Positions 7,221-35,883 of a stretch of 37,968 nucleotides of DNA are shown here, piece by piece. Under the pieces are notes generated by a model that saw only the letters and a program-made list of their open reading frames with translations, did not search any database and was not told where the DNA came from. How positions within the stretch are numbered: the first letter of the stretch is position 1; each line of letters opens with the position of its first letter. The position numbers were made by a program, and so were the translations under genes. Source of the stretch: Candidatus Heimdallarchaeota archaeon LC_3 (GTDB taxonomy: Archaea > Asgardarchaeota > Heimdallarchaeia > Hodarchaeales > LC-3); assembly GCA_001940645.1 (NCBI GenBank), contig MDVS01000043.1, forward strand, positions 1-37,968, read 5' to 3'.

Positions 7221-8498
7221 GTGACTGTTTTGTTGATTATTTCAACAGCTATGAAAAAACAAAACAACTCCACAGTCAGGCAGCAAGTATGGTCAGAACT
7301 TCATAAACTTTTCGGTAGGTTTATTGAAGGTACAGAAGGTTGGATTTATTCAAAGCAGTCTCGCTGGAGTTCTACTCATGTTTTCCAACGATTAGCTCAG
7401 GCAGCACTGGAAACAGCATCAATTGAGGATGTCTGCAATTCATTTGAAGGTTGCAGTGCTGATACTGTGCAATATAGGATTAGACAACTTGATTTTGAGA
7501 AAATAGTTCAACAGATTAATGATATATTAAGATATAATGCTCAAAGTTTTCAAATTCATAAAAACACTATTTTAACTATTGCTGTTGATGTTACTGATTA
7601 TCCATGGTATGGTGATCGTGATCATGATCTTTCTGTGGGATCTAAGGAAAAAGCAGGGACTTTGTTTTTTAATCGTTATTTTACAGCCTGTATTATAACA
7701 AAAACTTATCGTATTCCTATTTATGTCTGTCCTTTAAGGCAAGAAGATGGAGTTAGTCCATATAAGCTCATGAGGGATTTAATTAGAGAGATTAATTGGT
7801 GGTGTCCATTTTCACGGGTTTTAGCAGATGCTTGGTTTTTCTCCAAAGAATTGTATGATTTGTTAGATCTCTATAAAATCGAGTACTTATTCAATTTAAA
7901 AACTCAACGAATAGGTAAACAGAAATTAGAGATGATTAGAAAGACTCAAAGATTTATGGCAAAATTTGATGGCGTGGATGTGTCAAATCCAAAGATTTTT
8001 TACAAATGGCTGAAAAAACATAGACTTCTAACCTTCAAATTTGATTCTTTCCTTACTATGAGGAATAATCGTCGCTTTCCGGTTGTTGTACAAACAGTTC
8101 TAGCAAAGAAGAAAAAAGGACGAAAACCCCATAAAGAATATATTCAATTATACGCTTATACAACGAATATATCAGCTTCAGGAGAGTATTTAAAAGATCT
8201 ATATAAATTACGATGGGGAATTGAGACTCAATATCGTGTTACTCATCAATTTCAAGCTAAAACTACCTCACTATGCATTAATTTACGTATTCTCCTGGTT
8301 GGACTGAGTTTCATCTTAACAGGTCTTTGGCTTCGTGTCAATCTTATATTAAATCGAATAAAGTCTCATACTGATAGTGTCATTGATTTTGATCTTCCTA
8401 TAAAAATTAATATTAAAGATACACTAGTGTTGACTGTTCCAGGATTAAAACGTATCATTCAAGCGATATGGTGGATGAAATTGGGAGGTGAAAAATGA
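7221..8498 (+). CDS. IS transposase, DDE type (ISH3-like)
   Basis: The 425-residue protein has a full DDE triad: Asp123 in LTIAVDVTDYPWYGD, Asp203 in VLADAWFFS and Glu335 in LRWGIETQYR, the Y/R-WxIE block typical of IS4-superfamily enzymes. The N-terminal 110 residues are helical and probably bind the ends. The GTG at 7221 gives this length; an ATG at 7251 (codon 11) is an alternative, and neither has a strong ribosome site. The stop codon at 8496-8498 overlaps the first two bases of the right inverted repeat. It cuts and pastes its own element. Confidence 0.88.
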   Translation: MTVLLIISTAMKKQNNSTVRQQVWSELHKLFGRFIEGTEGWIYSKQSRWSSTHVFQRLAQAALETASIEDVCNSFEGCSADTVQYRIRQLDFEKIVQQINDILRYNAQSFQIHKNTILTIAVDVTDYPWYGDRDHDLSVGSKEKAGTLFFNRYFTACIITKTYRIPIYVCPLRQEDGVSPYKLMRDLIREINWWCPFSRVLADAWFFSKELYDLLDLYKIEYLFNLKTQRIGKQKLEMIRKTQRFMAKFDGVDVSNPKIFYKWLKKHRLLTFKFDSFLTMRNNRRFPVVVQTVLAKKKKGRKPHKEYIQLYAYTTNISASGEYLKDLYKLRWGIETQYRVTHQFQAKTTSLCINLRILLVGLSFILTGLWLRVNLILNRIKSHTDSVIDFDLPIKINIKDTLVLTVPGLKRIIQAIWWMKLGGEK

Positions 8499-21430: not shown

Positions 21431-23536
21431 TTAAAACCTAATATCTTCCAGATTGCGAATAAGACGAAATTGTTCAATTTCAGAGGTTTCTTTGGTATCT
21501 ACTTTTTTAAGTTTCCCAAAATCGATATTTGTGAGTTTTTCAAGATCATTGATTGAAATCTGGTATAAAAATGTCTCAGCAGTCGAAAGTCTTTCGAATA
21601 CATTCCCTTCTTCAATCCTATCAATATCTAGAACCTGATCTTGTTGACTAAGTAGAAATGCTGTAGCTACTAGTTTTCTGTTCTTCAATATAACAATTAA
21701 TTTCCAAAAAAATTTTGGAATAGGAATTTTTTTGAATTTAGGGTCGGAATGAGGAAAGTCTTCAGGATTCGGTAATGTTCCAGTAGGAGTTAACGGTCCA
21801 TCAAAGATCGGTCCATTGAATACACAGCCTCTACGTTTTTCTGCTTCTAATTGATCTAGAACGTATTCTTCAATCCCCAACCAGAGTTTTCTTCCTTGAT
21901 TGAATTTGAAAAATTGTGGGGCACAATTTGTGAAGTGAAAAGTATCGTCACCATTCCTTTTTGCCTCTGCTTTTGTATCCCCCCAAGTTGCATCGAGTCG
22001 ACGAACTAGATGTCCCCGATCAAATGGATTATTTGTGCGACTCTCATCTAACCTCTGCCGTTTATAAAATTCATTGCCAATCTGAACGTTCTCATCTATA
22101 CGTGGATCAAATAACCATCGATCCCCTCTGCGCCTACCAACATCTCTTCGCAACCCTCCATCAATATTTACTGCTACAAAAAATGCTAACTTTTTCTCTT
22201 TATTCATAACAACACTATAATTATAGTATTTAAGCACAAAATCAGTCGAAGAATTATTCAAATAAGCAATTTTCGATTTCTGATTCTCATTTATTTGTGG
22301 AAGGGGGATTTTATGTTTACTTCCAAGAAAAGCATCTTTATATCCTGGACGTTTATTCAAGTTGGTATGGTCAATTTCAACTCTTTCAGTTGGTATACTA
22401 TCAGGAGGTAACACTGATGGGGAAAGAGATTGGGGAGGAAGCTCTCTACCAATGATTTCCAGAGGAAACTTTGCAATCAATGATACAAAGTCATTTTTAG
22501 TTTCTGTATGAATAATACTACCTTTAAATTCTTGTGATGAATAAGAATCATGTATTAAGTATCTTTTTGGTTTAGGAGGTGAAAATTCTAACGCTTTTTT
22601 TATCAAAGGATGATTTCCTAAATTATCTTGAAGATGTTTAACAATCGAACTAATCCTAATTCCCTCATTCGCTATCCATTTGATTCGAGACTCACCCATT
22701 GAAGAGTCCCAAATAGCACCATCATGTGTCAACCAATTCCCATTATCATCTTTTTCAGGAACTCCACTATGATGTAGTGCTGCAATTTGCCAAAACATAT
22801 TAAAAACCGGTGAACCAGAAGAACCACCAAGAGTATCAGTCTGGTACCACAATGTCTGATCCATAAACTTAAGAAGCTTATTTTCCCGGACACAAATCTG
22901 TTTTAACCTTCCCTCTGGATGCTGAATTATTGTCAAATATTCACCCACGTTCGCTTTACCCCGTTCAGGTGATAAAGATAACCATCCCCAATCTTCAAGA
23001 CGAAAATTCCCTTCTTTTGAAGTAGGAGCAATAGCCACTATAGCGAAATCTAATTCCTCATTTGCATAGAAAAATTTTTCTGGATGAAAACTGAATCTTA
23101 CTACGGGTTTCTCGTAATTTGTAATGTCAAGTTCATAATTGAAATCCGCAATTGAATAGGTAGCATCCTCTTTCCTTTTGAAGACATGATTATTAGTAAG
23201 TAAAACTTCAGGACCGATAAGAAACCCTGTTGCGTAACCAAGTAGTCTTCCTGACCTATTTCGTAATTGGATTCGGCAAATAGCTCGCGAGGCTATTAAA
23301 CCCTTTTCGAGGAAGTTGATGTTGACTAGGTCATTCCCTCCAATGATCCTTTCAAAAGCGCTTCGAGCACGTTCTGGGTTGCCCGTTTCATCAAGTAAAC
23401 GTTGAAATCGAGAGTCTCTTTGCTCTATACTGAGAAATCTACCACGATCTATTTCTCCTACTTCTTTTGATCGCTCTATTGGATCAAAATCAAGACGTTT
23501 CCTTGAAGCTTCGATTAATTTCTTGAAAATTGCCAC
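21431..23536 (-). CDS. Trypsin-like serine protease fused to a DNA/RNA non-specific nuclease (NUC/ENDO_G)
   Basis: I favour the GTG at 23536, 8 nt after a strong GGAGG; a GTG at 23551 would add five residues and is used for numbering here. Residues 1-80 are a charged helical region. Residues about 85-310 are an S1-like protease with TNNHVF (His122), ELDFAIV (Asp168) and GGSSGSPVF (nucleophile Ser245). A Pro-rich linker follows (about 320-425). Residues about 435-690 are a NUC domain: DRGHLVRR with catalytic His514, then TNCAPQ and FNQGRKLW with metal-binding Asn551 and Glu561. No signal peptide or TM segment is seen, so both enzymes would be intracellular. Related fusions in bacteria are linked with conflict systems, but no partner was identified here. 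Confidence 0.85.
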   Translation of the reverse strand: MAIFKKLIEASRKRLDFDPIERSKEVGEIDRGRFLSIEQRDSRFQRLLDETGNPERARSAFERIIGGNDLVNINFLEKGLIASRAICRIQLRNRSGRLLGYATGFLIGPEVLLTNNHVFKRKEDATYSIADFNYELDITNYEKPVVRFSFHPEKFFYANEELDFAIVAIAPTSKEGNFRLEDWGWLSLSPERGKANVGEYLTIIQHPEGRLKQICVRENKLLKFMDQTLWYQTDTLGGSSGSPVFNMFWQIAALHHSGVPEKDDNGNWLTHDGAIWDSSMGESRIKWIANEGIRISSIVKHLQDNLGNHPLIKKALEFSPPKPKRYLIHDSYSSQEFKGSIIHTETKNDFVSLIAKFPLEIIGRELPPQSLSPSVLPPDSIPTERVEIDHTNLNKRPGYKDAFLGSKHKIPLPQINENQKSKIAYLNNSSTDFVLKYYNYSVVMNKEKKLAFFVAVNIDGGLRRDVGRRRGDRWLFDPRIDENVQIGNEFYKRQRLDESRTNNPFDRGHLVRRLDATWGDTKAEAKRNGDDTFHFTNCAPQFFKFNQGRKLWLGIEEYVLDQLEAEKRRGCVFNGPIFDGPLTPTGTLPNPEDFPHSDPKFKKIPIPKFFWKLIVILKNRKLVATAFLLSQQDQVLDIDRIEEGNVFERLSTAETFLYQISINDLEKLTNIDFGKLKKVDTKETSEIEQFRLIRNLEDIRF

Positions 23537-23620
23537 AGTTCTTTCCTCCACACTATTAAAGGATCAAAATAATTCATAAATTATGTTCTTAAGTAATGTT
23601 CCTTTTACAATCGGGATTTT

Positions 23621-28148: not shown

Positions 28149-29627
28149 ATGATATTAGAATTTCAGATATACACCTTATTTGAAGAAAAGTTATTCATAA
28201 AAAATTTCCATCAGGTTATTTCTCCTGATCAAACTACGATTATCAATAAAACTATTCCTTCCTTAATCAAAGTTATAAAGAATCTCTTCAGTATCAATAG
28301 TACAAATTCGAAAGTATTTTCTATTGCAGGGCTAAATATTTACTTTAAAATTCTTAACGAAAACATTTATATAATAATAACATCTATAGGATCAATTGCT
28401 TCTATTTTTGACGATTTTATTAAAAAAATCGACACTTCTATTAAAGAAATTCTTAGTCTGGAACCAATTTTTGATTTAAATTCAAACCATTATTTTCTTA
28501 GAAAATTAGAATCTTTAAAAATTCTTGCAGAGAACAAAATTCTAGGAAAGAAACAATCACAAATTGAAGAAAAGAGTCAAACAATTTCTGTTATGAGACA
28601 ATCACTTGTTAATAAAAGTAAAAACAAGTATTTAATTATGGGAGCGGCAGCAGCAGGCAAGAGTTCAATAATAGCTCAATTTTTTGAAAGTTGGAAACAA
28701 GAACAATTATTAAACATAAAACCAACAGTATTAAATGCGATAAGGCAATTCAATGATAATTATACTAAAGAATCATTTTTGATTAGGGATTTAGCAGGAC
28801 AAGCAGTTTATAGGAAGAAGCATCTAGAAGACCCAAAAAATTTTGAAAATGTTAACTGTCTAATATATGTGATTGATATTGAAGAGACGAATAACTTTAG
28901 CATTGTTCAAACATATTTCCTAGATATTTTAAATAAGCTAAAGACTCAAAAACAAAATCCATTAGTATCGATCTTCCTACACAAGTTCGATCCGTCAATC
29001 AGAGAGAAAATATCTAATCAATTGTTATTTTGGATAGAATGGTTAGAAGAGATTTTTAGTAAAGAGGAATATCGATCCTTACATTTAAATTTTCATCTTT
29101 CATCTATACTAGATAGTACAGCTAAAGAAGCTTTAGCACGAACATTATTATTTACTCTTCCTCATTGGTTCTTGGGCCAAACTATTCAAAATGAGCTAAT
29201 CATTAAATCAACTAATAGTCTATATCCAGTGTTTGGACAATTTCACAAAGTTCTAACGGAAATTGAACAAGACCAAATTAAGAATGAACTATATCAAGCA
29301 TCTTATTTATTTGGATTGGAAGTAGCTAATGAAATTGTATCCAATTGGATAAAATATATGATAAAAGATGAAGAATTTATTAAGAGCTTTAATTTAAATA
29401 ATCAGATATCTGATGTGGAAATAAGAACATTTGAAGAAGAAAAAAAAATCGAATTTTGTTTTAAGTGCCCACTTAAAGAAGAACTGAAGGTTCATCCTTC
29501 AATGTGTGAAATTACTCATGGATTATTTCAAGGAGTCGGTCAATTAATTGGATTTCCAAGCGCAAAAATGAAAACTACCCAAATCAGAAATAAAAGTGAG
29601 TATTGCATCATTGATTTGTCGTATTAA
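28149..29627 (+). CDS. Longin-like / Ras-Rag-like GTPase / V4R-like fusion protein
   Basis: Three parts are visible in 492 residues. Residues 1-105 alternate strands and helices (ILEFQIYTLFEEKLFIKNF, then YFKILNENIYIIITSIGS) as in longin-type folds. Residues about 158-335 are a small GTPase: P-loop GAAAAGKS (165-172), a switch I Thr near 193, DLAGQ (214-218, G3), and HKFD (278-281, G4 with His for Asn, as seen in Rag/Gtr proteins). Residues about 350-490 end in CEITHGLFQGVGQLIGF and a spaced Cys (488), like the 4-vinyl-reductase (V4R) ligand-binding domain. GTPase assignment is firm; both flanking domains are inferred. It is probably a cytoplasmic switch that reads a small ligand. It faces the response regulator convergently, 18 bp apart. 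Confidence 0.78.
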   Translation: MILEFQIYTLFEEKLFIKNFHQVISPDQTTIINKTIPSLIKVIKNLFSINSTNSKVFSIAGLNIYFKILNENIYIIITSIGSIASIFDDFIKKIDTSIKEILSLEPIFDLNSNHYFLRKLESLKILAENKILGKKQSQIEEKSQTISVMRQSLVNKSKNKYLIMGAAAAGKSSIIAQFFESWKQEQLLNIKPTVLNAIRQFNDNYTKESFLIRDLAGQAVYRKKHLEDPKNFENVNCLIYVIDIEETNNFSIVQTYFLDILNKLKTQKQNPLVSIFLHKFDPSIREKISNQLLFWIEWLEEIFSKEEYRSLHLNFHLSSILDSTAKEALARTLLFTLPHWFLGQTIQNELIIKSTNSLYPVFGQFHKVLTEIEQDQIKNELYQASYLFGLEVANEIVSNWIKYMIKDEEFIKSFNLNNQISDVEIRTFEEEKKIEFCFKCPLKEELKVHPSMCEITHGLFQGVGQLIGFPSAKMKTTQIRNKSEYCIIDLSY

Positions 29628-29645
29628 ATTTTATTTTAGCAGTAT

Positions 29646-30566
29646 TTATTTAAAAGTCGAATTAATGCTCACATCATGATCTTGTATGAGAATTTTAGAA
29701 ATCTCTTTCCAAGAATCGATTAATTCCCAAACCTCTGAAGATTTGATTTTTTTTTCAATTTTTTCAAAAATTTTTTTTATATGTAGCGAATCAAAGTATG
29801 TGATTAGTGGAGCAATAGTACATAGCATAAATTGACGCTGATTTCCACGCACACTAGTATCAAAAATTGAACCAAAATAAATATATCCAAAACGGTTGAG
29901 GTTTCGTATTTGGAGTAAAACTCCTTCTCCATGTTCATAATCTTCATGACCATAAATCGCTACGGTTGTCTGAAATAATTGAACACCGATTTCATTTATT
30001 GAAATTTTTATTGAATAGTCCTTAGGAAAAACATCTTTAATAACCGGTCCTAATTCTTCATCCCAAAAAGCATAAAACAAACAAATATCTTCTTGAAGAA
30101 TATTTCTTGCTTCAAAACCCTCAACAAGTTTATTATCTAACATTTTCATAAACTTTTCATTAAATTTAGATAACTGCTTTTTTCTATGCAATTTTCCTTT
30201 TATCGAACTAAGTAATTCTTCTTCTTGAAATGGTTTAGTTATATAATCATCTATCCCTAATAATTTTCCTAATTGAATATCTTCTGGAGTCGCTTTTGCG
30301 GATAAAAATATGAATGGGATGCTAAACCATTTAGGATTTTTTGATATTGTTTTAAAAAATTCATATCCGTCCATTTTTGGCATCATAATGTCACTAATAA
30401 TTAAATCAGGTTTTCTATCTGAATTAGATAACGTATCAATAGCATCAATTCCATTAGAGGAAGTAATTATATTATAATCGTTAAATTCAAGCATCATTTG
30501 AATATTTTTCAAAATTTTGGGATTATCTTCAACAACTAAAATGAGTTCATCCATATTTGACACCAT
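29646..30566 (-). CDS. Response regulator with a longin-like C-terminal domain
   Basis: The receiver domain fills residues 8-125: acidic pair Glu13/Asp14, phosphoacceptor Asp59 in IISDIMMP, Thr/Ser in LSAKA and Lys111 in TKPF. There is no DNA-binding domain after it. Residues about 155-290 form an unassigned domain opening with FYAFWDEELGPVIKDVFP and including VRGNQRQFMLCTIAPLI; the strand order and the D-x-x-GP start recall longin/roadblock-type folds common in Asgard GTPase control, but this is inference. The gene begins 5 bp after the histidine kinase stop, so it is its cognate partner. An internal ATG at 30554 is an alternative start. Confidence 0.85.
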   Translation of the reverse strand: MVSNMDELILVVEDNPKILKNIQMMLEFNDYNIITSSNGIDAIDTLSNSDRKPDLIISDIMMPKMDGYEFFKTISKNPKWFSIPFIFLSAKATPEDIQLGKLLGIDDYITKPFQEEELLSSIKGKLHRKKQLSKFNEKFMKMLDNKLVEGFEARNILQEDICLFYAFWDEELGPVIKDVFPKDYSIKISINEIGVQLFQTTVAIYGHEDYEHGEGVLLQIRNLNRFGYIYFGSIFDTSVRGNQRQFMLCTIAPLITYFDSLHIKKIFEKIEKKIKSSEVWELIDSWKEISKILIQDHDVSINSTFK

Positions 30567-30571
30567 TCATG

Positions 30572-32524
30572 TTATTTAGGAGCTTTATCTTTCCTTAAAT
30601 CTGGTAAAAAAGCGGAAAAAATACTTCCGATTTGATAGTTGCTTTTAACATAAATTTGACCTTGGTGAAGCTCGACAATTTCTTTAGCAATTGCGAGACC
30701 GAGACCCGTTCCTTGAATTTCAAGAACGTCTTCTGACCGGAAGAACCGCTCAAATAAAAATGGTAATTCATGCTGTTTTATACCAATTCCCTCATCAATT
30801 ACTTGAATAAGGATCCCTGGTAGAATTTTTGGGTTGTATTCTCCCAGATAATTTTCAAAAATTTTAATCTCTATTTTTTTATATTCTTGTGAGTATTTTA
30901 TAGCATTTTCAATAAGAATACGTATTATTTGATTTATTCTTGAACTATCACCATAGAAGTGAAGATCAGGATTAACATCAGCAATCATATCGATCTTTTT
31001 TGATTTTAGTTGGGGAGTAAAATACATCTTTACATCAGTAATAATCTCTATTATTGGAAATATAAACATATTTAACTCTATTTTTCCAAATTCAATACTA
31101 GATATAATTAACAACTCTTCTATCATTAAATTTAAAAGTTCTGAACTTTCTTTAATCATAGATAAAGTTTCATTAATTTGAACAGCAGACATTTTATTTT
31201 TATAATTAATCAAGTTATTAATTGAAAGACTTATTGATGTAATCGGAGTCCTAAGCTCGTGAGACACATTTGAAACAAAATGTTTTCTCATATTTTCAAA
31301 TATTTGAAATTTCGTTATATCTCGTAATTCAACCATAGTTCCTAATGGTTGATTTGAATTAGGAAGAAAAATATGAACTAGCGATGTTTGAAAATAAATA
31401 CCATCAGTTGTTTCAATGATAACGGGTTTAGGATCTTTCGATGTAATAATCTTCAGAATTGAATCAATAAGTTTAAGTCCACATAAATCATAAATAATAA
31501 ATTTTTTGGGTAAAGTTTGATTGCATGTTCTCTCAAATAAAGCCTTAAAACTGTTATTTGCATAATAGAGCAAGCCATTATTTGATAATACTAATATACT
31601 GTCAGAAATAGCATCGAGCATCGTTTCAATTCTAAATTTTTCTTTAAGAACTTCTTCGGTTTTTTCCTCAACTTTTTTAACTAAATTTTCCTGGGATAAT
31701 CGTAATTTTTTTTCCATTAATTTTTTTTCAGTAATATCAGCATGTGTTCCAATTAAACGAACAGGTTCATTTTTGTCATTGCGCAATACTTTACCATGAG
31801 CTAAGACCCATTTATATGAACCATCTTTGCATCTCATTCTATACTCAGCAATATATTCTGAAGTTCGACCAACTAAATGATCATTAATAATATTAATAAT
31901 TCTTTGGTAATCATCAGGATGAACCCGTCGATTCCATTCATCTGCTCGGTTAGTTATTTCATATTCTTGGTATCCCAGGATCTCTTTCCATTGTTTAGAA
32001 AAGAAGGTTTTCTTTGATAAAAGATTTGCATCCCAAACACCGATGTTACTATGTTCCAATGCGATTTTCCAACGATTTTCCGAAAACAGGTTTTCTCTTT
32101 CTTTTAATCTATCGTCAGAAATATCATAATTCAAACCAATTATCAAAAAATTTGATTGTTTGTTATCAGCGACATAAAGTGTAAGATGAAATTCGTTTAT
32201 TTTACCATTCTTTAGTCTTAATCGGTATTGAAATTCAGTCTTTATTTTATTTTTGCGCGTAATCTCAAGTGAATTTAGAAAAATTTCTCTATCATCTGGA
32301 TACACGTAAGATAGATATTCCTCTATTGGAACTTTGTCTGATATTATTTCATGATCCAGAATGCTTTTATCTTTATTTAAGAAATGGACAATGTTGTCTT
32401 TATCGATAGACCAGACAAAAAGTTTGCAATCGGATAAATTATTTTTAAATTTTGGTATGATTAAACTATCAAGCCCAATATTGTTCGTATTTAAACCCCA
32501 ACGACTATCAATAGTTGCTATCAT
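30572..32524 (-). CDS. PAS-domain sensor histidine kinase
   Basis: The 650-residue protein has no membrane segment, so it senses inside the cell. It has three PAS-like modules: about 30-140, 150-270 (PAC motif YRMRCKDGSYKWV, then ITEKK) and 300-408 with DAISDSILVLSNNG. A short coiled linker precedes the dimerisation domain with phospho-accepting His422 in SNVSHELRTP. The ATP-binding domain shows the N-box around Asn540, G1 DEGIGI (577-582) and G2 GTGLGL (605-610). It should phosphorylate Asp59 of the adjacent regulator. The ligand is unknown; PAS domains often bind heme, flavin or small molecules. Confidence 0.92.
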   Translation of the reverse strand: MIATIDSRWGLNTNNIGLDSLIIPKFKNNLSDCKLFVWSIDKDNIVHFLNKDKSILDHEIISDKVPIEEYLSYVYPDDREIFLNSLEITRKNKIKTEFQYRLRLKNGKINEFHLTLYVADNKQSNFLIIGLNYDISDDRLKERENLFSENRWKIALEHSNIGVWDANLLSKKTFFSKQWKEILGYQEYEITNRADEWNRRVHPDDYQRIINIINDHLVGRTSEYIAEYRMRCKDGSYKWVLAHGKVLRNDKNEPVRLIGTHADITEKKLMEKKLRLSQENLVKKVEEKTEEVLKEKFRIETMLDAISDSILVLSNNGLLYYANNSFKALFERTCNQTLPKKFIIYDLCGLKLIDSILKIITSKDPKPVIIETTDGIYFQTSLVHIFLPNSNQPLGTMVELRDITKFQIFENMRKHFVSNVSHELRTPITSISLSINNLINYKNKMSAVQINETLSMIKESSELLNLMIEELLIISSIEFGKIELNMFIFPIIEIITDVKMYFTPQLKSKKIDMIADVNPDLHFYGDSSRINQIIRILIENAIKYSQEYKKIEIKIFENYLGEYNPKILPGILIQVIDEGIGIKQHELPFLFERFFRSEDVLEIQGTGLGLAIAKEIVELHQGQIYVKSNYQIGSIFSAFLPDLRKDKAPK

Positions 32525-34139: not shown

Positions 34140-34547
34140 TTGTTTCCAGAGGTTGGTACAGCTAGACTTTTGCATAAAAAGGAAGTATTAAAGATCTTAA
34201 TCGTAGACGATTTACCGGATAACCTCGAACTATTAGAATTATGTATGAAAGATTTATCACCAAAGGTGGACCGTGCAGAGAACGGAAAACAGGCAATATC
34301 TTTGATAAAGAAGAACGAATATGATATAGTTTTCATGGACTTACGAATGCCAATTTTAGACGGCTATTCTGCTATGAAACATATTCGAGAGTGGGAAAAA
34401 CAAGAAAACAAGGACCAACTACTAATCGTAGCAGTAACCGCATATTCTATGGACTATGAATATGAAAAATCATTACAAGCAGGTTTTTCAGATTTCTTGA
34501 CAAAGCCAATCTCCAAAGAATTGATCAAAGAGGTAGTTAAAAAATAA
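34140..34547 (+). CDS. Stand-alone response regulator receiver (CheY-like)
   Basis: The product is a single receiver domain: acidic pair in LIVDD (23-24), phosphoacceptor Asp67 in FMDLRMP, Thr in AVTAYS and Lys122 in LTKPIS. The frame begins at TTG 34140; the domain itself starts near codon 17, so a later start such as TTG 34173 is possible. There is no output domain or nearby kinase, so it probably receives phosphate from a distant or hybrid kinase and acts by protein contact. Confidence 0.85.
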   Translation: MFPEVGTARLLHKKEVLKILIVDDLPDNLELLELCMKDLSPKVDRAENGKQAISLIKKNEYDIVFMDLRMPILDGYSAMKHIREWEKQENKDQLLIVAVTAYSMDYEYEKSLQAGFSDFLTKPISKELIKEVVKK

Positions 34548-35183: not shown

Positions 35184-35280
35184 ATGTCTAGTGCATTTAT
35201 TTTAATCAGCAGTGAAACTGGTAAAGAGCTATTTATTCTAAAAGAACTAAGAAAAAATCCTTATGTCTCTAAAGCATATA
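35184..35280 (+). pseudogene. N-terminal fragment of an Lrp/AsnC RAM protein cut by a transposase fragment
   Basis: ATG 35184 opens MSSAFILISSETGKELFIL then KELRKNPYVSKAY, the first strand and helix of a RAM domain. The expected G-x-YD-x-hydrophobic strand is missing: from about 35263-35280 the bases belong to a transposase frame, and this frame stops at 35333. The gene was evidently broken by an insertion or a deletion joining it to the element. Confidence 0.55.
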
Positions 35281-35883
35281 AAACTTTCACCTGCTTTACA
35301 GAAATTGAGTCTAGATTATCGAATAGATGGTAAAAGTACTTATTCTGTTCAGAAAGTTGATCATGATGCAAAAAAGAAAGCCAAAGATCAGACAAGAGGT
35401 CGTAAACGTACGCGTTTTGTAAAATATGAACAAATAGTCAAGTTTATGGGTGAATTTGAAAAGTGGTCTTTTTTTACTCATCCAACGTCTGGTGAACGTA
35501 TTTTCTATAAAAAGTCATTTGTGACCTTGAAAGCAGGAGGACAATGCATAATCTATGCGTACAAAAATGAAAAGTATAAAAATCCTAAATTTATCATGGT
35601 GAACCCTAAGCGTAATCATATGCCTGATCCGCGGACTATTTATCGTGATTATTCTTTTAGATGGGTGATTGAAGTGTGTCACAGAGAAATAGAGCAACAA
35701 TTTAATATTGGTAAGTGTCAAAGCCGAGATATGTGGATTGTTAATGGTTTTCTTATGTTAGTGGGCCTTATATTTTCAGTTTGGAAAGTAACAATCTTTT
35801 TTGATTCACAAAAGGTTAATAATCAACTTGGATGTCCAACTTGGGCTAACTGGTTTCATGAACAATATATCAAGAGTCATTAA
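35263..35883 (+). pseudogene. C-terminal fragment of an IS4-like transposase
   Basis: The 206-residue frame has the IS4-superfamily C-terminal block YRDYSFRWVIEVCHREIEQQ with its catalytic Glu, followed by NIGKCQSRDMW and a hydrophobic end. The two catalytic Asp regions that should lie before it are not present, so the N-terminal half is lost. The ATG at 35263 lies inside the RAM-gene junction and is unlikely to be a native start. It is not closely like the complete IS at 7.1-8.5 kb. No inverted end was found after 35883. Confidence 0.7.

Follow-up and report, generated by a model that had tools for sequence, protein, structure and literature searches.

In Candidatus Heimdallarchaeota archaeon LC_3, a two-component system probably acts directly on a Rag-like GTPase switch, most likely as a phosphorylation-gated GAP, and not on transcription, a reading to which we assign a probability of roughly 55%. 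The response regulator of this system joins a receiver (REC) domain to a longin-type output domain, and the coupling of such REC-longin regulators with GTPase genes is observed in other Asgard genomes. Because the regulator ends in a domain that resembles eukaryotic GTPase controllers and is encoded beside a Rag-like GTPase, a phosphorylation signal of bacterial type may set a eukaryote-like switch. Asgard archaea are the prokaryotes closest to eukaryotes, and no description of REC-longin regulators was found in the literature searched. The preliminary description of this DNA had already interpreted the locus as a signaling pair facing a GTPase switch, and that interpretation is supported by the analysis of the window, a 37,968-nucleotide stretch of contig MDVS01000043.1.

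Three open reading frames make up the locus. A PAS histidine kinase of 650 residues (30572–32524, minus strand) is followed after 5 bp by a regulator of 306 residues (29646–30566, minus strand), which converges, with 18 bp between the stop codons, on a GTPase fusion of 492 residues (28149–29627, plus strand); this is the arrangement that had been described. The kinase matches the Pfam families PAS_3 (6.3e-32, in two stretches; PAS at 31742–32008), HisKA (4.5e-11; 31091–31288) and HATPase_c (5.2e-23; 30599–30952), all on the minus strand. The adjoining regulator possesses a REC domain at residues 9–122 (30201–30542, minus strand; Response_reg, 2.4e-25), in which the phospho-acceptor Asp59 (30390–30392, minus strand) is an aspartate in 200 of 200 relatives and Lys111 is kept in 199, so that a kinase with HisKA and HATPase_c lies next to a REC protein with its acceptor residue, as in a two-component system. 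Pfam gives no convincing match for the output domain and finds no DNA-binding domain in the regulator, in agreement with the earlier reading. As the genes are convergent, the kinase-regulator pair and the GTPase are not co-transcribed. Rfam and tRNA scans of the whole window were empty.

The GTPase belongs to the Rag/Gtr family, with a Gtr1_RagA match of 2.1e-17 (63.8 bits, cut-off 22) and the Rag-type HKxD motif at residues 278–281 (28980–28991, plus strand); NCBIfam gave no match to this protein. Its G domain spans residues 156–337 (28614–29159, plus strand), includes Gln218 (28800–28802, plus strand), and is of the same family as that of the Asgard Rag-like GTPase LokiRagO (8yl2). In the AlphaFold model, the segment before the G domain (residues 1–141; 28149–28571, plus strand) shows, over residues 2–141, the element order b-b-a-b-b-b-a-a. 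The proposal that this N-terminus is longin-like is therefore borne out in topology, which is that of the regulator longin, and not in sequence: no sequence relatives of known fold were found, a profile search returned two unrelated matches with E about 7, and a profile-profile comparison between this domain and the regulator longin gave no match. Foldseek and VIA-align lists for the whole GTPase were filled by G domains.

Rag/Gtr GTPases carry a C-terminal roadblock-type dimerization domain. The C-terminus of the window GTPase (residues 339–492; 29163–29624, plus strand) is modeled by AlphaFold as helices followed by b-b-a-b-b, and may be the V4R-like domain suggested previously, for which support is weak. 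MetOD1 matches it below the family cut-off (E 0.0047 in the whole protein; 4.7e-4 and 20.7 bits, against a cut-off of 23.8, for the C-terminus cut out), and V4R itself matches one of 11 family members (E 0.16). Four residues, Cys440, Cys453, His457, and Cys486, are invariant (eight of eight). Profile matches of the C-terminus to a designed repeat protein (4e-6, no single stretch passing) and to vigilin (0.16) are not believable. The alignments of the N- and C-terminus each retain one row (L056) that is an unrelated outlier.

The output domain of the regulator (residues 156–294; 29685–30101, minus strand) is predicted by AlphaFold to follow the longin topology, with the order b-b-a-b-b-b-a-a over residues 162–294. 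Profiles of its family have a single PDB match up to E = 10, the longin protein C9orf72, which is marginal in both of the overlapping profiles that find it (E 0.03 and 0.013). Together the topology and this match support the earlier suggestion that the output domain is longin-like. Folliculin is among the weak Pfam matches of the domain, alongside other weak matches, some of them stronger. Searched by itself against the protein database, the longin part yields three close relatives, and matches to receiver domains took up the Foldseek and VIA-align lists for the whole regulator, together with three dual-sensor kinase entries with an rmsd above 15. The regulator ends about 12 residues beyond the last longin helix and, with no DENN domain following, does not qualify as a longin-DENN protein.

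In eukaryotes, longin GAPs work as pairs and have a DENN domain, and an arginine finger is proposed to act on Rag and Arf in the case of the longin-domain GAPs NPRL2, FLCN, and SMCR8. The candidate for such a finger in the regulator is Arg240 (29847–29849, minus strand), which 197 of 200 relatives share (78/80 from genome loci and 119/120 from the database). Arg240 sits in loop 236–242 of the AlphaFold model, between strands 225–235 and 243–252, which are longin strands 4 and 5, and the regulator thus has the arginine in the strand 4–5 loop in which longin/DENN GAPs carry their finger (PMC12803157). The finger of SMCR8 is Arg147, whereas C9orf72 holds Arf1 and leaves the finger to the other subunit (PMC8213707); in the profile match, the C9orf72 residue opposite Arg240 is an asparagine.

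That asparagine would suit a less likely alternative, in which the longin would serve the GTPase as an exchange factor or a docking platform, like TRAPP longins, Ragulator roadblocks, and MglB. Arg240 would then be structural or serve binding, and phosphorylation would switch recruitment or exchange and not hydrolysis. The sole PDB match, C9orf72, does hold its GTPase without supplying a finger, roadblock and longin domains are known as platforms, GEF parts, or GAPs (PMC10933270), and MglB is described as both GAP and GEF (PMC11016934). Against this stands a near-invariant arginine placed exactly in the strand 4–5 loop, as in the longin/DENN GAPs, and we favor GAP activity.

The neighborhood of REC-longin genes in related genomes had been proposed as a check on the link to GTPases, and the linkage does recur, mostly in a tighter and co-directional form, unlike in the window. 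We compared 80 loci, comprising all REC-longin matches with E ≤ 8.2e-22, of which L095, L106, and L120 were left out of linkage counts because no REC was recognized on the same frame. Of the 77 remaining loci, in other Asgard genomes, 60 have a GTPase no more than 5 kb away, compared with 4 of 40 random regions (p=6e-13), which were drawn from the same contigs, on contigs >100 kb only, and at least 20 kb from any strong REC-longin match. As the GTPase HMM was partly built from neighbors, an HMM-free detector was also used and gave 57/77 against 3/40; the GTPase detector picks up Ras-superfamily GTPases in general. The loci are not fully independent because the genomes are related, and when collapsed at 62% identity, 26 of 40 have a GTPase. 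In five genomes, GTPase linkage was found at 5 of 12 REC-longin loci and at 2 of 52 other kinases, with 150 of 183 Gtr1_RagA matches used. Co-directional GTPase-kinase-regulator runs occur at 35 of the 80 REC-longin genes (median gaps 26 and 36 bp), and seven of nine loci found with the GTPase alone have a REC-longin gene close by. The Rag-type HKxD motif is present in 57 of 73 neighboring GTPases, and NKxD in 12. At one locus, L001, a plain REC protein without a longin stands among the GTPases.

Several distinct GTPase lineages adjoin REC-longin genes in a tree of 71 neighbors, 13 of which fall in the other half, where references match Gtr1_RagA weakly (E 4e-9 to 3e-6). The idea of a single dedicated GTPase clade is weakened by an operon-GTPase profile: 46 of its best 64 matches have a listed REC-longin match no more than 6 kb away, and 18 are unlinked. 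Linkage is concentrated by rank, with 38 linked among the best 41 and 8 among the 23 that follow, and since all 18 seeds of the profile came from REC-longin neighborhoods, linked copies are favored in the top tier. Inspection of the 18 unlinked loci revealed no REC-longin gene. Those among the best 41 are L188, on a 3.8-kb contig, L189, which has 1.6 kb of contig left in its reading direction, and L190, where a kinase follows immediately downstream before the contig ends. Conversely, 17 of the 77 REC-longin loci have no GTPase inside the 5-kb range, and 8 of these are full-extent loci.

These unlinked copies on both sides, the variety of adjoining lineages, and the longin-less REC protein of L001 would fit a single pathway without contact, in which the longin output binds another partner, such as another longin or a membrane protein, while the GTPase acts in parallel or downstream. 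We regard this as improbable, as a longin next to a Rag-like GTPase is a textbook pairing of regulator and target; the fact that several lineages are linked suggests, moreover, that the constant requirement is for a GTPase. Chance adjacency is ruled out as a general explanation by the three comparisons above, and for the window it is very improbable: the gene order is convergent and Asgard genomes are rich in GTPases (each of the five has 22 to 54 Gtr1_RagA matches), but the linkage recurs across genomes, relatives of the window regulator and GTPase occur on contigs of the same sizes (6736 and 10118 bp), and L060, L067, L078, and L124 also have convergent REC-longin/GTPase pairs.

Under the preferred reading of direct action on the GTPase, the PAS kinase would phosphorylate Asp59 of the regulator, and phosphorylation, perhaps through pairing of C-terminal longin domains, would let the longin engage the neighboring Rag-like GTPase. 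Arg240 would most likely be offered from the strand 4–5 loop to the GTPase active site, accelerating GTP hydrolysis as proposed for NPRL2, FLCN, and SMCR8. The longin-like domain of the window GTPase could complete a longin pair, and its V4R-like domain could bind a ligand. Counting against this reading are the marginal C9orf72 match, the stronger Pfam matches beside Folliculin, the lack of a DENN domain, the unlinked copies, the neighbors with NKxD, and the convergent gene order in the window.

Among known longin GAPs (GATOR1 NPRL2, FLCN-FNIP2, C9orf72-SMCR8, and Avl9-type DENN proteins), the regulator shares the longin topology, the arginine between strands 4 and 5, a marginal profile match to the C9orf72 longin, and a Rag-like GTPase as likely partner. 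It differs in that its longin serves a REC domain as output and is not followed by a DENN, its GAP role is putative, and the sequence relation is marginal. The nearest analogues of the whole module are the conservons and the Myxococcus MglA module. Conservons, the actinobacterial G protein systems, comprise the CvnA kinase, the CvnB roadblock, CvnC, and the CvnD GTPase (PMC13343842), and by analogy likewise combine in one operon a small GTPase with a histidine kinase and a regulator of the roadblock/longin class; in the system described here the GTPase regulator is instead fused to REC, making it a true response regulator, with a longin in place of the MglB roadblock and a Rag-like GTPase. In Myxococcus, the receiver-domain protein RomR and the roadblock GAP MglB control the small GTPase MglA (PMC9481161, PMC6785124), again combining a receiver-domain protein and a roadblock/longin-class regulator with a small GTPase. 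There, however, RomR with RomX is a GEF separate from the roadblock, whereas REC and longin form one chain here. NitrOD3, a REC-roadblock among thaumarchaeal output domains, also joins an archaeal REC to a domain of the roadblock/longin class, but it is Roadblock/LC7-related and the available text mentions no GTPase linkage for it (PMC5847659). Asgard proteins have been described in which a roadblock or longin is fused to a GTPase, or a longin to TRAPPC3, and in MK-D1 the small GTPase genes as a rule do not share operons with genes for RB, longin, or TRAPPC3 (PMC10933270). Unlike the fusions described in the available text, the window chain is longin-like, G, and V4R-like, and stands beside a two-component system.

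A broader and more tentative proposal, which we hold at somewhat less than even odds, is that REC-longin regulators work as arginine-finger GAPs on Rag-like GTPases and are gated by phosphorylation. They would form a prokaryotic branch of the GATOR1/FLCN/C9orf72 longin GAP fold under direct two-component input, so that Rag-type switches would have been under histidine kinase control in the lineage giving rise to eukaryotes. If true, this would connect, in the archaea nearest eukaryotes, a bacterial phosphorelay in one step to a GTPase switch of eukaryotic type, and a GTPase-directed class would join the known response-regulator output domains. A small soluble system of two or three proteins from one operon would then be at hand in which to test how longin-domain GAPs arose, and the finding would suggest by what means Rag-type GTPases were regulated in the time before the Ragulator, GATOR1, and FLCN complexes.

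The PAS histidine kinase gene (30572-32524, minus strand; 650 aa, with Pfam PAS, HisKA and HATPase_c domains) is followed after 5 bp by a response regulator gene on the same strand (29646-30566; 306 aa), whose sole Pfam domain is the receiver domain (REC). The GTPase gene (28149-29627, plus strand; 492 aa) faces this pair, and its stop lies 18 bp from that of the regulator. Its product matches Gtr1_RagA (Pfam), with a sub-threshold C-terminal match to MetOD1, a domain that has been likened to HNOB, V4R and ATC hydrolase domains (PMC5847659). All three genes are intact and converge just as the preliminary description had placed them. A second, stand-alone REC protein (34140-34547, plus strand; 135 aa; Response_reg 1.1e-25) is encoded 1.6 kb from the kinase, which could be common to both REC proteins. 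The window also contains two DDE_Tnp_1 transposase matches on the plus strand (7221-8498 and 35263-35883, the latter to the profile end only) and a 706-aa protein (21431-23551, minus strand) that carries trypsin-like peptidase and DNA/RNA non-specific endonuclease domains.

The output domain of the regulator had been described as having longin/roadblock-like features, and in an AlphaFold model (60 sequences, mean pLDDT 79.8) residues 162-294 are predicted to follow the longin order of elements, b-b-a-b-b-b-a-a. Whole-model fold searches with the regulator returned lists occupied by receiver-domain matches, which left the output-domain fold without a direct score. When a profile of 39 output-domain relatives was searched against all PDB sequences (to E=10), the single match was C9orf72 residues 27-161 (E 0.03); a second profile, built from 44 relatives with less redundancy, which shares content with the first and is thus not independent of it, matched two sequences, each of them C9orf72 (E 0.013 and 0.019). 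In Pfam, Folliculin was matched by 2/39 and 2/44 members at E about 0.06. The two member sets also gave other weak matches, some with lower E, including DUF2536 (E 0.014, 4/39) and ElaD_SseL-like_N (E 0.00064, 1/44); these are presumably chance. C9orf72 and folliculin are longin-DENN proteins, and the longins of their complexes are described as forming GAPs that act on Arf and Rag GTPases (PMC8213707). Among contig regions fetched from Asgard genomes, longer proteins of about 690 aa also have a REC-longin end (L102:6351-8438 and L110:7998-10073), and a longin domain ends a 565-aa protein in which REC was not recognised (L095:7998-9692). Weak longin-domain matches lie inside frames of about 1142 aa, for example on a contig of one scanned genome (G008:C8:124951-125214).

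Recurrence of the pairing was assessed by a GTPase-profile scan, an output-domain scan with a random control and a five-genome count, and the three approaches agree. The output domain is present in 74 of the 227 genomes of the phylum (profile scan, E <= 1e-5), and 80 loci were fetched around all matches with E <= 8.2e-22. Repeated adjacency, which the preliminary description had left to a survey of Asgard genomes, was found: a GTPase lies within 5 kb of 60/77 REC-longin loci, against 4/40 regions drawn at random from those genomes' contigs (Fisher p=6e-13), and an HMM-free GTPase detector gave 57/77 against 3/40. This linkage is retained in 26/40 loci once collapsed at 62% identity. In 17 loci no GTPase lies within 5 kb, and 9 of them end inside that distance. 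A kinase lies within 300 bp of the REC-longin gene in 59/77 loci. The co-directional run GTPase-kinase-REC-longin is found for 35/80 REC-longin genes (median gaps 26 and 36 bp), and the window-like layout, with the GTPase facing the regulator's end, occurs at four further loci (L060, L067, L078 and L124). Scanning with the GTPase profile alone gave nine loci, one of them a 4.1-kb contig (L003); a REC-longin gene lies close by in seven, and in six of these the order is GTPase, kinase, REC-longin. Across five genomes, a Gtr1_RagA match lies within 5 kb of 5/12 REC-longin genes (random expectation 0.97/12), compared with 2/52 other kinases more than 10 kb from such a gene (p=0.0018). For the Asgard archaea taken together, we consider it very likely that kinase, REC-longin regulator and GTPase form a working unit; for the window we consider it probable.

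Other arrangements were also seen. L001:1-11186 (Hodarchaeota YT5_056, JAEOTY010000079.1), another of the nine loci from the GTPase scan, is a signalling island with at least five GTPase genes. It consists of a kinase end, a small GTPase, three fusions built like the window's GTPase, a further gene that by eye resembles a P-loop GTPase, a kinase, a REC protein with no longin domain, and an Arf-like GTPase that carries a GAF domain. At L056:3917-7373 (minus strand) three GTPase genes (425, 321 and 407 aa) follow one another downstream of a kinase gene paired with a REC-longin gene; the two that were scanned both match Gtr1_RagA. Tandem REC-longin genes occur at L055, L076 and L126, where hetero-pairs of longin domains would be possible.

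Relatives of the regulator with a named source (among the best 120 of 3089) come from Hodarchaeales, Helarchaeota, Lokiarchaeota and other Asgard archaea, and a marine sediment metagenome supplied the closest among the matches listed (95%). For the GTPase, the search gave nine proteins, the window's own included. Because regulator relative P0002 and GTPase relative P0123 share a contig size of 6736 bp, and P0004 and P0124 one of 10118 bp, the adjacency appears to be retained at 86% and at 54-61% identity.

The neighbouring GTPases carry HKxD in 57/73 cases and NKxD in 12/73. A tree of 117 G domains groups 43 neighbours with 8 genes from the GTPase-scan loci in one clade (support 0.999), here called the operon clade; it contains 0/20 Gtr1_RagA proteins from sites away from REC-longin genes, taken from two genomes, and 0/6 control GTPases. 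Another clade, apart from this one (support 0.999), unites the window's fusion with four relatives. Since the remaining neighbours are scattered over several positions, with 13/71 neighbours in the opposite half of the tree, REC-longin genes are linked to more than one GTPase lineage. Of the best 64 matches to the operon clade in the 227 genomes, 46 lie near a listed REC-longin match (38 of the top 41 and 8 of the 23 that follow); the regions fetched around the other 18 contained no REC-longin gene. The operon clade is not exclusive to REC-longin neighbourhoods.

Direct action of the phosphorylated regulator on the GTPase would be the simplest mechanism. Regulator residue Arg240 is kept in 78/80 genome-locus and 119/120 protein-database regulators, a constancy comparable to that of Pro174 (198/200) and near that of Asp59 (200/200). 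In the model it sits in the loop that joins strands 4 (225-235) and 5 (243-252). According to an Avl9 preprint, DENN GAPs have their arginine finger in the longin subdomain, between b4 and b5 (PMC12803157), and SMCR8 Arg147 is reported to point at BeF3 in the Arf1 complex (PMC8213707). We propose Arg240 as a candidate catalytic residue. On account of this loop arginine, and because the profiles lean towards C9orf72, we favour a GAP role. The main rival is that REC-longin serves as a GEF or platform for the GTPase: the residue aligned with Arg240 in C9orf72 is Asn, which fits its place as the Arf1-holding subunit, with the finger coming from SMCR8, so the sole relative detected is itself a non-catalytic subunit. 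For the favoured GAP role, a longin pair as in known GAP complexes is speculation, with which the tandem genes would agree, as would the longin-like domain at the start of the window's GTPase.

Earlier papers cover the parts: the GTPase, roadblock, longin and TRAPPC3 proteins of Asgard archaea (PMC10933270), archaeal response regulators in a census that includes the roadblock-related NitrOD3 (PMC5847659), conservons (PMC13343842) and the MglA module (PMC9481161). Within the open-licence PMC literature searched, no account was found of REC-longin regulators or of GTPase genes linked to them; conservons are the closest in spirit to the window's two-component system with its proposed GTPase-directed output.
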